Assembly (NCBI RefSeq): GCF_000430685.1
Contig: NZ_KE387194.1
Coordinates: 4,291 to 68,290 of the forward strand
Source of the DNA: Tuberibacillus calidus DSM 17572
Lineage (GTDB): Bacteria > Bacillota > Bacilli > Bacillales > Sporolactobacillaceae
Reading direction: 5' to 3'
Length of the DNA stretch: 64,000 nt
Shown here: positions 27,938-33,142 of the stretch, piece by piece
Layout: each line of letters opens with the position of its first letter
How positions within the stretch are numbered: position 1 is the first letter of the stretch
Program-made: the position numbers and the translations under genes
The notes under the pieces: generated by a model
Database searches by the model: none
What the model was told of the DNA's origin: nothing
The model's input: only the letters and a program-made list of their open reading frames with translations

Positions 27938-27984
27938 AAAAGAGGTTGACCAGGGGGACAAAACCCCGATCGGTCAACCTCTTT
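27938..27984 (-). terminator. Terminator of the ybcI-like gene (bidirectional)
   Basis: AAAGAGGTTGACC and GGTCAACCTCTTT form a 13-bp perfect stem with an inner GGGG/CCCC pair. It overlaps the 3' end of the minus-strand gene. The preceding gap 27722-27937 has only a short fragment (about 27880-27910) of the repeat seen at 1-243. Confidence 0.8.
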
Positions 27985-28348
27985 CTTCTATGGCATTTTG
28001 AAGATTGCCGGCAAGCTTAAACACCATGACGCGTTCGCCGGTTTTCGTGCTTAAATCCGTATGCATGCTGACGACTTCAAATTGCGTAATATTATAAATA
28101 ATTTCTTTTAAATCATCGACACCGGACTCCACCAAACTATTTCGGTGTTTTTTGACGGACAATAAACCGTCTTTATCGCTACATAGCGAATACTCGGCAG
28201 GCGTTAAAATGCCCCTAAGGGTGACAATAATCATGTTGCGTAAGATGTCCGATTTAACGGATATGGAGCCCCGTCCGAGATATGTTTTTTCCCAGTGCGT
28301 TAAGGCATTGCTGATTTCGGCTTCTAGATCACCTTTTGTTTTTCCCAT
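27974..28348 (-). CDS. DUF2294 protein, YbcI-like
   Basis: A 124-residue protein of the DUF2294 family: KGDLEAEISNALTHWEKTYLGRGSISVKSDILRNMIIVTLRGILTPAE, then the ending TGERVMVFKLAGNLQ. In B. subtilis the homologue YbcI is encoded in the ybc locus beside the DabA and DabB genes (ybcC, ndhF), and here too it follows dabA on the same strand. This supports a role with the bicarbonate transporter, although its function is not known. The start at 28348 has AAAGGA six to seven bases ahead; an upstream frame of 15 residues has no such site. About 150 bases separate it from dabA, so it may have a separate transcript. Confidence 0.85.
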   Translation of the reverse strand: MGKTKGDLEAEISNALTHWEKTYLGRGSISVKSDILRNMIIVTLRGILTPAEYSLCSDKDGLLSVKKHRNSLVESGVDDLKEIIYNITQFEVVSMHTDLSTKTGERVMVFKLAGNLQNAIEERG

Positions 28349-28498
28349 ATTGTGTTCCTTTCCGTGTAGCGTTTCTTTTTTATAGTTTATCATGAATGAG
28401 AATCAACCGTTAATCGTTAGGCCGGCTGACTTTCCACCAAAGCTTTCGCAGTTTCTTCTCACAGGCTGAACAAAAACCGTCTATGAAAAAGGGCCCCT

Positions 28499-31099
28499 CT
28501 AAGACCAGCTGATCCAGTTTCCGTCGGGGTCAATCGTCGCTAGACGAAGCCAACCGTTTTTCAACTTTTGTCGAAAATCCGGGTCATGATCAAGGATGCG
28601 CTGAATGGACTCGGTCGGCGCTTGGATGACCGTGAGCAAGCGTAACGGCTCATGATAGATGGCCGTGTCAGAAGCCATGACGGATTGCCAAGGGAGGCCA
28701 GTCAACAGGTCACTGCCATTGCCTTGCATTACCCCGATACCTGACGTGACGGTTTGGGTGATTTTATTGCCGCTTCCGTAATAATGCGGGGCCACGGTGG
28801 AGGCGTAATATTGCAAGTTAATCCACTGGGCTACCGTCACCGGACCTTTAATTATGTTGGCCAATAATTCACCGTTACGGTCTTTCTGCCATTGATAATT
28901 ATGAAGAAAGACCCTACCTTCCAAATGGCGGCCTTTTGTCAAGGAACGCTCTCCGATGATAAAAGCGGCATTCCCCGCCAGCGCCCACTCAGGACGAATT
29001 TCGCTCCAATCCTTAGCCCGCTTTTCCGCTTCCGCATGTGTGCGTTCTTTTACCGAAACAATGGTTGGAAGAAGGGGGAGACGCTCACGGCCAAGTTGTT
29101 CAGTGACTTTAGGTAAAACTTTTTCGACGCGGTCAAAGGCCGATTGCGCTTCTGGACTAAGGTCTGGTACATCGAGCCATTGCAATTCATCGGTTGTTGT
29201 CACATGTTTGGCGGCGACAAAAACGGTTTCTTCTGGAATGATAATCCCTGTTGTTTTCAACTTTTCGCGTACTTCCGGGAGATTGCACAAGGCGACGAGA
29301 ACGCGGGCGTTGAATGTGCTCGATGCGCCCCCGCAAGCACTGCAATCCAAGGCGGTGGCATGAGGATTATTCACGGTTTCCCCTTCATGCCCGCAAATCA
29401 CCACTAGAGGCGCGAAGTTTTCCGTTAAGCCCATTGTCACCAAGGCTTGGCGCGCAAAGAAGACTTTTTCTTCATCGCTAAATCCCAAAGGCAAGTCCGT
29501 TTCGCCTTCACAACAACGGTCAAGTGTCAAGCCGATCTTCGGCGTTTTGACCAAGCGCTTGTGTATGTTCCCGTACCATTTTCGCACGGTTTCGGGAATA
29601 AAGCTTGAAGCGAGGCTATGCAAAGCGAGCCACGGACCGCTGATTTCCGGAAGCAACAAGCCGCTCGGCATATTGTATTTCAATGTTTCAAAAGTTTGTT
29701 TCGGTGACTCGGCAAGATCGGCGCGTTTCTGGAAATCCCGGTAATCAAGATCCGGCAAGGTTTCCTCGATTTTATATTGCGGTTTGAGCATGACCGGCAA
29801 CGCGCTGTGACTCCGCTTTTTTCCGAGTTTCCGGGCTTTGATCGGTAATCCAAAAAAACCAGCCGTGCCAAAAGTCTCGAATGGACCCGTTTCTTCGAGG
29901 TGGCGACGGATCGCTTCCGAACGAACATCCAAACAAAAAGCAAATTGCGCAACAGGCGGTTGTTCGCGCGTCTTAGGTGCCGATACCTTTTCCGAAATGA
30001 GGTTTTTCAAATGCGCTTCATATGTTCTCTCCCAAGCCTCAAGCCAAATCAGGCGGCGGGCGGCCTTTAGCCGCTGGGCGAGATGCAATCGGCTTTTTTG
30101 TTCATCCGTTGTCAGATGGAGCCAATCACTTGGCGCCATTCCGCCATACGCCGCCCAAGATTGAATGAGCGCTTCAAGCATTCCACCGTCATCTTGCGAC
30201 GAAGGGGTTTCGATCAACTCGGGCGGAATAAGAAAGGCTTCAAGGGAGAGGCGGATGGCAAGATAGTCGATAAGGAGGTGATCATCACCGTTTTCTTCTG
30301 CCATCCAAAGCAACATCCCCGCCCAACCGGGCAAAGCCAAAAGATGTGCTTCTAAATATTGACGGCTTTCTTCCGGGCGTATGTGTAAATCGACGAGCGC
30401 TTTCTTAAGGGCTTGCTCAGCGTCTTCCGGTAAAGCTTTTAACCGTTGACGCAGGCTGCGGGGAAGTGCCGGATCATGAGGCGAAAGCCGCTTCCAAGCG
30501 CCATAAAAGCCTTTTTCCCGGTGCGGCATCGGCCAAGCGGCTTGCTGATCATCGAGATATAACTTACACCACTTCATCATCTGGTGATTGAGGCGTTCCC
30601 CTGTGTTGTCGATGCCGAGCCGTTCCGTTTTCCGACTGTGCGTTTCAACAATCGATGGCCCAGCTAGATGAGAGGCGAGGCGGCGCAGCCGTTTCGAAAC
30701 GGTTTTCACATGACCGGGATCTATGTCGGCGGCGTATTCCTTATTATCATTAAGTAATGCCCAACCAAATTGTTCTTGGATCTCTTGCGGAATGTCCAAG
30801 GCTTGGCTTTCAAGCCAGCGGTGGAGCGCTGCCTTTAATTCCTGTTGGTCGATGTGATGGCTGCTAATAGCGGCTTGAATCATCGCCTCACTGGGTAGGA
30901 TGTCGACATCACACCATCTTTTCAACCGCTCCACTGCTTTATCGAACTGCATGTGTTCCCAACCGGCCCAAGGACTGCGGGCAGCAAAAGCCGTAATCGG
31001 TCCATATGGTGCAATGACGCGTGAAGCTGCTTTTACCAGTTGATGAAGATCAATGGCGTGAACCGATGAAAACGCGAGGTTTTTTAAAGTGGTATTCAT
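28499..31099 (-). CDS. dabA: Inorganic carbon transporter subunit DabA (DUF2309)
   Basis: An 866-residue DabA, the beta-carbonic-anhydrase-like half of the DAB pump that turns CO2 into cytosolic bicarbonate driven by a cation gradient. The zinc site known from Halothiobacillus DabA is intact: Cys389 and Asp391 in FCLDVRSE, His571 in CGHEGETVNNPHA and Cys586 in LDCSACGGAS. The C-terminus LLTVIQAPTESIQRIL is conserved in the family. It overlaps the upstream dabB stop by four bases, so the two subunits are translationally coupled. It serves carboxylation reactions (anaplerosis, lipid synthesis) in a heterotroph. Length is normal for Firmicute forms. Confidence 0.96.
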   Translation of the reverse strand: MNTTLKNLAFSSVHAIDLHQLVKAASRVIAPYGPITAFAARSPWAGWEHMQFDKAVERLKRWCDVDILPSEAMIQAAISSHHIDQQELKAALHRWLESQALDIPQEIQEQFGWALLNDNKEYAADIDPGHVKTVSKRLRRLASHLAGPSIVETHSRKTERLGIDNTGERLNHQMMKWCKLYLDDQQAAWPMPHREKGFYGAWKRLSPHDPALPRSLRQRLKALPEDAEQALKKALVDLHIRPEESRQYLEAHLLALPGWAGMLLWMAEENGDDHLLIDYLAIRLSLEAFLIPPELIETPSSQDDGGMLEALIQSWAAYGGMAPSDWLHLTTDEQKSRLHLAQRLKAARRLIWLEAWERTYEAHLKNLISEKVSAPKTREQPPVAQFAFCLDVRSEAIRRHLEETGPFETFGTAGFFGLPIKARKLGKKRSHSALPVMLKPQYKIEETLPDLDYRDFQKRADLAESPKQTFETLKYNMPSGLLLPEISGPWLALHSLASSFIPETVRKWYGNIHKRLVKTPKIGLTLDRCCEGETDLPLGFSDEEKVFFARQALVTMGLTENFAPLVVICGHEGETVNNPHATALDCSACGGASSTFNARVLVALCNLPEVREKLKTTGIIIPEETVFVAAKHVTTTDELQWLDVPDLSPEAQSAFDRVEKVLPKVTEQLGRERLPLLPTIVSVKERTHAEAEKRAKDWSEIRPEWALAGNAAFIIGERSLTKGRHLEGRVFLHNYQWQKDRNGELLANIIKGPVTVAQWINLQYYASTVAPHYYGSGNKITQTVTSGIGVMQGNGSDLLTGLPWQSVMASDTAIYHEPLRLLTVIQAPTESIQRILDHDPDFRQKLKNGWLRLATIDPDGNWISWS

Positions 31100-32613
31100 C
31101 GCGTTGGACCTCCTTTTGACATAAGCTGTGTGAGATATTTCGGATGGCTTTCCATGGCATCCGGGTGGGCTTCACCAATACGAATGAGCCAAAGGTACAG
31201 CCAAGTATAAAGTTTTGAATGACGCTGCCGTTTGACCCAGATGGCGAGCAGGCTGGCTCCAATTAATAGTATTAACAGAATGATGACTAAAGGCGTTGAT
31301 GGACCGGGGGACGGAATGCCGTTCAAAAGGTGATAAAAAGCGAGATGGATCAAGAAAAACATGAGTCCCGCAACACACAGCACACCCAAGTTGATGAGCC
31401 GTCCCAATCGCCCGTAGTCATAAGCGGTCAGTTGCGTCCAAGCGATAGCGAGTGACCACCCTAAAATGACGGCACTTGCTGTCCGGTAGCCATAGTCCGG
31501 CGAAAGCGTCCAGTAGATAACGCCTGCTGCGATGCCCAAAATAAGTCCGAGCACCCGCCATAGATTGGCATGAAGGCCTGTACGTTCAGGCTTTTCCGCA
31601 TGTTGCAAGGCATTCCCGGATTGCAAGAACAATGTGGCCTTAAATAGACCGTGTAAAACAGCGTGTGTGATGGCGGCAGCGAAAGCGCCCAAGGCACATT
31701 GAACGAGCATAAAGCCCATTTGCGCGATCGTTGAACCGACAAGTTGCCGTTTATAATCCGGCTGAACCAGCATGATGCCCGTTCCTAGAAGTACGGAAAG
31801 CCCTGACGCGATCAAAAGGACGGTTTGGGCTAAAGCATTTGTAAATAAAGGTGCAGCTACCGTCAAAAGAATCCCGCCGACATTGACGATGCCGGCATGC
31901 ATAATCGCCGAAACCGGTGTCGGTGTGACAACAGAGTTGAGTAGCCAACTTTGAAAAGGAAACTGAGCGGCAGGAATCATGACCGACATCACGAGTAGTA
32001 GCGTCATACCGGTATGTGACCAAGGGTGAAGCTGGGCGACATGAGCGCTGAGCTGTGACCAATGCCAGCTTCCGGTTTCTTTGACGAGCCAAACGATGGC
32101 GACTAACAGGAATAGCCAGCTCAAGCTAAACACGCGGCCGGCTAAGGCAGAAGACCATAGTGCTTGCCGCCATGTGTGATTTAGCCGAATCAAAAGCGTT
32201 AAAGACAGAAGGACGGCTCCCCAAAAAACGAGCATAAGCCGTATATCATCGCTGACCCAAGCGAAAGCATCAAAAAAAGTGATGAAGGAAAGAAAAGCAA
32301 AATAGCCGCGATAATGGCGATCGCCCAAGAGATAGCGAACCGAATAGCGTTGGACGATGAGCCCGATCGTCAGTACAAATAAGGCGATCAACCATGATAA
32401 TGAATAGAAGCGAAACGGCCCTAGGATGGTAGGGGTCCGGTCCATAATGAGCGCCCCAAGAGAGATCAAAGGCGGTAACGTTAAAAGGCCCATATGCACG
32501 CGAACATAGGACAATGGTACGCAGGGTTGTAAAAAGATAAGCGCGCTGAGAGCCGCAAGGAGTAAAAATGCGATAAAAAGAATCGGCAATAACGTATGCA
32601 ATAAATCCGTCAT
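31096..32613 (-). CDS. dabB: Inorganic carbon transporter subunit DabB (NuoL/NdhF-like)
   Basis: A 505-residue membrane protein of the proton-antiporter (complex I NuoL) family with about 13-14 helices. PAAQFPFQSWLLNSVVTPTPVSAIMHAGIVNVGGIL is the diagnostic antiporter loop with its lysine-free DAB variant, and AAITHAVLHGLFKATLFLQSGNAL carries the second conserved His/Lys pair. It conducts the cation that drives DabA. The start at 32613 follows GGAGGG; an earlier ATG in frame (32676) adds 21 residues overlapping a leader hairpin and is rejected. It is first in the dabB-dabA unit, behind a promoter at 32901-32929 and a structured leader. Confidence 0.95.
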   Translation of the reverse strand: MTDLLHTLLPILFIAFLLLAALSALIFLQPCVPLSYVRVHMGLLTLPPLISLGALIMDRTPTILGPFRFYSLSWLIALFVLTIGLIVQRYSVRYLLGDRHYRGYFAFLSFITFFDAFAWVSDDIRLMLVFWGAVLLSLTLLIRLNHTWRQALWSSALAGRVFSLSWLFLLVAIVWLVKETGSWHWSQLSAHVAQLHPWSHTGMTLLLVMSVMIPAAQFPFQSWLLNSVVTPTPVSAIMHAGIVNVGGILLTVAAPLFTNALAQTVLLIASGLSVLLGTGIMLVQPDYKRQLVGSTIAQMGFMLVQCALGAFAAAITHAVLHGLFKATLFLQSGNALQHAEKPERTGLHANLWRVLGLILGIAAGVIYWTLSPDYGYRTASAVILGWSLAIAWTQLTAYDYGRLGRLINLGVLCVAGLMFFLIHLAFYHLLNGIPSPGPSTPLVIILLILLIGASLLAIWVKRQRHSKLYTWLYLWLIRIGEAHPDAMESHPKYLTQLMSKGGPTR

Positions 32614-32895
32614 GTGGTTTCCCTCCAAACAGGCCAACTTCATTTTTGTACTTTTATGAAAATAAAAAACCGGCAACTTCCACCGTTCGGAACCGCTCTT
32701 ATGAGAGATTCCACGGATGATGGAAAATTGCCGGTTTACGTTTAACTGGCCAAAAACGGCCCTTTAAGCGTCCACCTATTATTGCATTTTATTAAATATA
32801 AAAAGGGACAGATGGTGGTGCCCCTATGTATCTCATACTTTTTATGATAGATTTCATTTCTCATCCGGGCAACCGAATGTTAAAGAAACCTCGCT
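32614..32895 (-). ncRNA. Structured 5' leader of dabB-dabA (candidate cis-regulatory RNA)
   Basis: Between the promoter and dabB lies about 280 nt of untranslated RNA. It holds a first hairpin (32804-32825, AGGGGCA with TGTCCCT) followed by a T-run, and a second, longer imperfect hairpin (32667-32737) whose outer stem AAACCGGCAA/TTGCCGGTTT is followed by TTTTTTATTTT. Both look like intrinsic terminators, so read-through may be controlled. I could not match it to a known riboswitch or T-box class. Confidence 0.55.
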
Positions 32896-32900
32896 TATAT

Positions 32901-32929
32901 ATTTTATATATGACTCGGTTATTTGTCAA
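32901..32929 (-). promoter_or_regulatory. Promoter of dabB-dabA
   Basis: On the minus strand TTGACA (32929-32924) and TAAAAT (32906-32901) are 17 bases apart, giving a start near 32894. Confidence 0.7.
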
Positions 32930-33077: not shown

Positions 33078-33105
33078 AAAAAAGCCGGGCGGGTACCCGG
33101 CTTTT
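33078..33105. terminator. Terminator of the S53 peptidase gene
   Basis: AAAAGCCGGG and CCCGGCTTTT around a 6-base loop, with T-runs on both strands. Confidence 0.85.
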
Positions 33106-33142
33106 CGTCTGTCAGTTTAATTTTTAATACAGCCGCCTGATT

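Follow-up and report, generated by a model that had tools for sequence, protein, structure and literature searches.

A conserved antiterminator-terminator element, probably a transcription attenuator, upstream of inorganic-carbon acquisition genes in Tuberibacillus calidus and other Bacilli

Background

The described systems closest to the element studied here are the RAT of the BglG/LicT type, the ydaO c-di-AMP riboswitch (RF00379) and the ion riboswitches of Rfam. The RAT is a short hairpin that contains internal loops and overlaps, through its 3' strand, the 5' arm of a terminator; module 2 of the present element (see below) is likewise a hairpin with two internal loops overlapping a terminator, and the order module, small gene, module, transporter in sbtA loci recalls the order RAT-bglG-RAT-bglF. 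The two differ, however, in bases and helix lengths (module 2 has about 8 bp between the loops), and the genes served here, unlike those of BglG/LicT, concern inorganic carbon. The ydaO riboswitch resembles our element as a terminator-coupled leader in Bacilli, and the operon downstream here is one that responds to c-di-AMP loss (PMC7857571), but the scanned leaders gave no Rfam match to ydaO. The ion riboswitches are also leaders of ion transporters, but no Rfam match fell at the elements in any of the scanned leaders.

The window, i.e., the whole stretch of 64,000 nucleotides of Tuberibacillus calidus DNA analysed here, contains a dabB leader that a preliminary description could not match to the T-box, SAM, ydaO, glycine, guanidine or fluoride classes, and Rfam bore this out: Rfam 15 gave no match in the window leader at gathering score, and in permissive mode the only matches were weak ones, either outside the leader or with scores well under the threshold. 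No Rfam match was found at the elements in 14 dabB loci, 20 sbtA or other loci and 20 further loci; permissive searches of L021 and L215 returned only matches far below gathering scores, and the T-box model had no match in the window leader or the 14 dabB loci. Literature searches found no description of such an RNA, with a large 2017 motif survey, which may describe it, outside their scope. The searched terms were absent from the main text of a 2021 survey (PMC8632094) and from PMC11394868; a 2020 review (PMC7266159) mentioned bicarbonate transporters only among ykkC-associated genes; and the available part of PMC2654142 named no dab or sbt gene. An in-silico table for Bacillus subtilis (PMC4448311) includes a stretch ahead of ndhF (205252-205408) with a structural-entropy score, the part of that source consulted giving no family, structure, covariation or function for it. 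In many bacteria of the Bacillus type, this widely conserved and apparently undescribed RNA family precedes bicarbonate transporters of two unrelated kinds.

Results

Promoter, leader and genes of the window

The genes behind the leader are arranged dabB-dabA-mpsC, all in the minus strand: dabB (mpsA/ndhF family) at 31096-32613, dabA (PF10070; mpsB/ybcC family) at 28499-31099 and mpsC (PF10057), a candidate regulator, at 27974-28393. The start of dabB was taken as the ATG at 32613, which follows GGAGGG, and not as the TTG of the open reading frame list. The operon is of the DabAB/MpsAB type, with DabA (PF10070) adjoining a DabB-type antiporter-like subunit; the genome has one mpsC, one module 2 and no Sbt_1. 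Upstream of the leader lies a gene for a peptidase of the subtilase fold (PF00082; 33143-34297, minus strand), presumably kumamolisin-like, and a hairpin with a T-run is found by it, near 33078-33112.

The promoter reported earlier about 280 bases before dabB was found in the minus strand at 32929-32901, a sigma-70-type TTGACA-17-TAAAAT sequence with 11/12 consensus matches, from which we infer a transcription start near 32894. The leader between promoter and dabB, about 280 nt in the minus strand, is predicted to be strongly folded: the 281-nt sequence reached -93.4 kcal/mol as compared with -65.5 +/- 5.2 for dinucleotide shuffles (z -5.4), none of the 200 shuffles being as low. The two hairpins with T-runs described earlier were also recovered, both in the minus strand: a compact one at 32825-32804, followed by TTTTTATATTT (-9.5 kcal/mol; 32794-32825 with its T-run), which is possibly the terminator of module 1, and a second one, long and imperfect, at 32737-32667. 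By count, neither terminator-like sites (6 vs 3.6 +/- 2.0 by chance) nor promoter-like sites (4 vs 3.7 +/- 1.9) were in excess in the 3-kb region; the second hairpin stands above chance because of its conservation and covariation in relatives, not because of the number of sites. Conservation before dabB in relatives, which the preliminary description had named as a check, was found for the second hairpin, in 57/57 leaders (see below), and is not supported for the first; the module of the first is degenerate in the window, and the hairpin was not recognised by eye in L086 and L087, the dabB relatives nearest to the window. Matches to the BsrC small RNA family occur near the dabB operon of these family relatives (L086 318-403 and L087 365-449). 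A possible leader peptide at ATGAAAAAG was discarded, as by eye the corresponding frames of relatives differ or stop at once.

Structure and conservation of module 2

Module 2 (element B) spans 32661-32781 of the minus strand and consists of a predicted antiterminator hairpin, P0-P1-P2, overlapping the intrinsic terminator. It corresponds to a block of about 110 nt common to dabB leaders of other Bacilli. In order, this block contains GG-N-AG, P1 (8 bp), P2 as a short hairpin bounded by AA and NG, AA-N-CCGACAAUUUU, a top of variable sequence, and finally the second arm of the terminator with its T-run. In the window, also in the minus strand, the P0 5' strand is GGU (32774-32776), P1 pairs 32764-32771 with 32738-32745 and P2 pairs 32757-32761 with 32748-32752 (32738-32771 overall, from covariation and the predicted fold), and the long terminator stem occupies 32667-32737. 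The strand ACC (32733-32735, minus strand) is shared: in predicted folds of partial transcripts it either closes P0 with GGU (read-through) or belongs to the terminator 5' arm (stop).

In a DNA search of 26 family genomes, the window leader matched only its own sequence and three short stretches of a chance-like kind; the family was therefore traced through dabB leaders. The covariance model R1, built from 22 dabB leaders, matched all 57 close-relative dabB leaders (53 named loci, the window and three family relatives), i.e., those of the best relatives of the window DabB, a few of them near-duplicates. Thirty-five of the 57, the window included, were independent of model building; the weakest of these scored 50.9 bits, and the window, absent from the building sequences, scored 68.4 bits (E 2.8e-10). 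R1 also found the element in L086, L054 and L088, in which a first hairpin-picking script had chosen other hairpins (L086, L054) or none (L088). No element was detected by R1 in the four DabB-like loci searched among the 26 outside the close group (L059, L060, L062 and L063). In a wider class sample R1 matched 29/299 genomes, 20 of them outside the order, and DabB was present in 24/200 genomes, 14 of which had an R1 match. With filters off, each of the eight loci searched among the ten missed (L300 and L301 being the remaining two) gave a match upstream of dabB; E values were 2.7e-6, 4.9e-6, 0.0013, 0.0021, 0.0031, 0.0088, 0.03 and 0.32, five of them weaker than 0.002.

Aligning dabB leaders for covariation, as the preliminary description had suggested, showed that P1 and P2, like the terminator, covary strongly. 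In alignment A2, made from sequence only and tested against a structure set beforehand by reading the sequences, 9/15 pairs of P0, P1 and P2 varied on both sides, with a covariation of 0.301 as compared with a mean of 0.171 for shuffled alignments and at most 0.096 for slid structures. In alignment A3, whose 95 sequences were fitted to R1 and which is biased towards the model structure, 25/31 pairs varied on both sides (425 cells vs 91.5 when shuffled), with 94% paired. The unpaired positions of A3 were nearly fixed: GG (95/95), A (94/95), G (95/95), AA (95/95) and CC (95/95). The window is the sole exception at the nearly invariant A, having GGUGG, i.e., GG after the P0 strand where 94/95 sequences have AG; GGUUG is found in L204 and L207, two weaker matches outside A3. 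The P0 bases GG and CC are invariant in A3, so P0 of module 2 is without covariation, and its third pair is non-standard in 42/95 sequences. RNAalifold run on the sequence alignment found the terminator alone, probably due to a one-base length difference between relatives in the P1 5' strand; P1 and P2 were afterwards placed manually, with the invariant bases as anchors.

Hairpin A and module 1

Many dabB leaders carry near the promoter another hairpin, hairpin A, with the consensus CUUU-AG-CAU...AUG-AA-AAAG. The pattern occurred in 39/56 loci, three of these false or misfit, and 9/17 of its pairs varied on both sides. Its model, R2, gave 28 sites in 27/150 genomes; 27 of them were followed by a module 2 at a distance of 30-513 nt, the 28th by an mpsC. 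In mpsC leaders hairpin A is the tip of a longer fold (module 1) with the base YCGW-NAG-AU...AU-AAR-WCGR, whose last four bases again begin a terminator arm. Module 1, hairpin A included, is found ahead of mpsC, dabB and other genes; in a few leaders, such as L161, L184 and L134, it has its own terminator in front of module 2. Hairpin A often lies upstream of module 2 in relatives, and in some of these two complete antiterminator-terminator modules follow one another. The window contains a weakened form of this layout, its module 1 copy being degenerate: the core at 32848-32889 (minus strand), CUUU-AA-CAUUCGG..CCGGAUG-AG-AAA, scored 10.9 bits with R2 (E 0.11 in 701 bases), which is suggestive and not significant.

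The base of module 1 (P0) was compared in 25 leaders, out of 51 for which a script had identified hairpin A and any terminator (often that of module 2). The two strands were CCGA/UCGG in nine, UCGA/UCGG in seven, UCGA/UCGA in three, CCGU/ACGG in three and single variants in three, and they paired in all; 100/100 pair cells were standard as compared with a mean of 93.1 and a maximum of 98 in 2000 shuffles, the selection patterns fixing part of P0 and L223 being anchored at a neighbouring TTGA. This pairing supports, and does not prove, an antiterminator in module 1. In L014, L134, L223 and L241 the other arm of the terminator did not match fully. Whether hairpin A pairs with the terminator arm in a conserved manner was also checked by eye, and the idea was dropped for want of consistent complementarity; in the single sequence of the window, UUGCCC of the hairpin A loop is complementary to GGGGCA of the first terminator arm.

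Distribution of module 2 and genes behind it

R1 matched 99/397 genomes of the order at E 0.01. DabA was found in 33/299 genomes, 30 of them among the 99; the other three are G037, G082 and G155, and G037 had an R1 match in the class search (E 1.8e-4). The first gene at 60 further sites, a subset of the listed matches mainly without a known DabA neighbour, was Sbt_1/SbtA-like in 43, DabB in 8, isocitrate dehydrogenase in 4, DUF6671 in 4 and another in 1, as called by blastp against references from the same set. Pfam searches of representatives gave Sbt_1 (E 1.6e-111 and 5e-89), P-II (E 2.9e-15), ICDH and DUF6671; of two carbonic-anhydrase-like proteins, one remained below the cut-off (E 3.6e-4) and the other had no match. 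Among 63 Sbt_1 genes in 189 genomes, 34 had module 2 directly upstream; of the remaining 29, at least 12, as counted from a partial mpsC list, follow mpsC and one is the case of G094, in which the next frame after the site is on the opposite strand and transposase-like by eye, with Sbt_1 about 4 kb further. In this locus (L155, G094:C1:386200-389100) the transposase-like frame lies between the hairpin A/module-2 leader and Sbt_1, perhaps an insertion splitting the switch from its gene.

Some other gene arrangements were seen. Module 2 precedes an isocitrate dehydrogenase of the NADP type in L160, L163, L164 and L188, the first three also with hairpin A, and the genome of L188 (G167) has two module-2 matches in series with mpsC behind. 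DUF6671 proteins, members of an unassigned family, have a Cys-rich end and recur in the operons L161, L167, L169, L170, L177, L179, L190, L191 and L195. In B. mojavensis (L006, 9024-10488) dabB-dabA are followed by a carbonic-anhydrase-like gene, a gene of 106 aa resembling by eye one in L190, and mpsC.

Discussion

The preliminary description took the tandem hairpins as a possible mark of attenuation, a reading that the sequences now strongly support: a conserved antiterminator and terminator predicted to exclude each other, with covariation, precede dabB and other inorganic-carbon genes. According to predicted folds, covariation and the P0 variants of module 1, a single strand is able to form either of two mutually exclusive helices, of which one is the intrinsic terminator. 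P0 was present in the minimum-energy fold of all five partial lengths of the window module tried (49, 56, 64, 89 and 111 nt), and at full length the terminator displaced it (-50.5 vs -47.8 kcal/mol with P0 forced, a gap of 2.7 kcal/mol). The sequence and these folds show P0 (GGU/ACC), the outermost pairs of the hairpin, using the first bases of the terminator 5' arm, so that P0 and the complete terminator are mutually exclusive. That the leader carries a conserved transcription attenuator of inorganic-carbon acquisition genes is our main reading, with a probability of roughly 0.7. We counted against it the invariance of P0, GGUGG in the window, the 14/24 DabB genomes with a match, the 29/63 Sbt_1 genes without a directly upstream module 2, the presence of ICDH and ilvD, not obvious bicarbonate genes, among those served, and an expression study (PMC7732839) in which the ndhF-ybcCFHI operon of B. 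subtilis was instead associated with heat shock and germination. The hairpins might instead be unregulated plain terminators or intergenic insulators, in keeping with the lack of excess by count and with the position of the element between two genes in sbtA loci; however, covariation reaches P1 and P2, outside the terminator, and a plain terminator would not keep GG-N-AG upstream of its stem in 94/95 sequences. We regard this explanation as very improbable.

As an attenuator the module would work as follows. The P0-P1-P2 hairpin can form before the terminator is complete, and GG-N-AG and AA-N-CC would lie in and close to an internal loop whose existence depends on P0 being paired. A factor recognising this loop would hold the antiterminator together and let transcription proceed into dabB-dabA-mpsC; without it the terminator would close and transcription would stop. 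The recognised state would be that of read-through, since the invariant bases form the loop only with P0 paired. The signal is most likely inorganic-carbon status, because the module precedes both DabAB and SbtA operons. An earlier suggestion of CO2 or bicarbonate as the signal gains support in this respect, since two bicarbonate transporter families, a PII-like protein and a weakly carbonic-anhydrase-like protein are served, the sensing itself being putative. Read-through would probably occur when CO2 or bicarbonate is scarce and stop when it is plentiful, a direction taken from the response of mpsA in Staphylococcus aureus: according to PMC6689103, 5% CO2 lowered mpsA 2.5-, 2- and 1.7-fold in three strains, significantly in HG001 only, a small effect that fits an off-at-plenty reading weakly. 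Four dabB-bearing genomes of one genus carry the Staphylococcus RNAIII; in two of them both elements are clear (B 41.3 and 40.0 bits; A 46.5 and 54.8 bits), and the other two have A at 33.9 with B at 15.5 bits, and B at 26.6 bits with no A.

If the switch is real, a small molecule would be the kind of factor we favour most, at somewhat less than even chances; MpsC is a less likely candidate, another protein an unlikely one, and no factor at all improbable. Within the small-molecule share, bicarbonate or CO2 would take the largest part, another metabolite slightly less and c-di-AMP the least. We consider it possible, if rather doubtful, that MpsC acts in trans, as a small RNA-binding protein that binds purine internal loops in both modules and switches mpsC as well as the transporter gene, by analogy with BglG, which plays the corresponding role in the bgl operon. 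PF10057 was present in 99/99 genomes with the element as compared with 189/298 without it (Fisher p 8e-17), 15/16 sbtA-type loci inspected have an mpsC frame immediately ahead of module 2 and 12/16 have hairpin A 478-561 nt before module 2, and the hairpin A sites themselves precede a module 2 (27/28) or an mpsC (the 28th). Four mpsC-sbtA loci without a module-2 match have, by eye, a module-1-like leader before mpsC, clear in L261 and L263 and divergent in L259 and L264. Against this, shared operons alone would give such co-occurrence, and an S. aureus mpsC deletion grew normally, mpsC being dispensable for mpsAB function (PMC6689103), which speaks against MpsC as an obligatory activator. The predicted MpsC fold (mean pLDDT 82) had no Foldseek match at E 0.001, and the best VIA Z of 7.4 was within background; this model-based search is no guide to function either way. 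Three genomes (G273, G314 and G391) have eleven PF10057 matches each, exceeding the needs of carbon operons, and the mpsC paralogues of L267, L268, L269 and L270, which lie outside carbon operons, have a different upstream stretch in common, of the type GGGTCCTCCGTTC..GAGATTTGGCC.

That the RNA itself is a riboswitch for bicarbonate or CO2 seems to us unlikely. The genes served are dominated by two unrelated families of bicarbonate transporters, but bicarbonate is a small anion and a hard target for RNA, the conserved bases lie in small internal loops with no multi-helix pocket, and a bicarbonate ligand on the read-through state would turn the genes on, contrary to need, unless the other state were bound. 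The lowering of S. aureus mpsA by CO2 cited above would agree with such a ligand. Less probable still is a switch that answers c-di-AMP, or the linked K+/Na+ status, by lowering expression. In its favour, cyanobacterial SbtB binds cyclic nucleotides; against it, the Rfam scans gave no match to the c-di-AMP riboswitch family. In B. subtilis without c-di-AMP the ndhF-ybcC operon is seven-fold up, and suppressors hit ndhF/ybcC; this effect may be indirect, the authors relating it to NADH and respiration (PMC7857571).

Conclusions

The attenuator proposed here suggests a means by which these cells could adjust carbon uptake to supply. With one RNA family ahead of DabAB and SbtA alike, Bacilli would have a defined regulon for inorganic carbon, and how such cells sense CO2 or bicarbonate would become directly testable in B. 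subtilis. The findings also link the DUF6671 family to inorganic carbon and suggest a regulatory role for MpsC, which is reported to be dispensable for transport in S. aureus (PMC6689103). It is an unlikely but conceivable extension that these modules represent the first case of RNA that senses inorganic carbon, i.e., RNA folds answering bicarbonate or CO2, often two in series, across Bacilli. As sensors they would set the expression of MpsC, of the PII-like and carbonic-anhydrase-like proteins and of the bicarbonate transporters, unrelated as these are.
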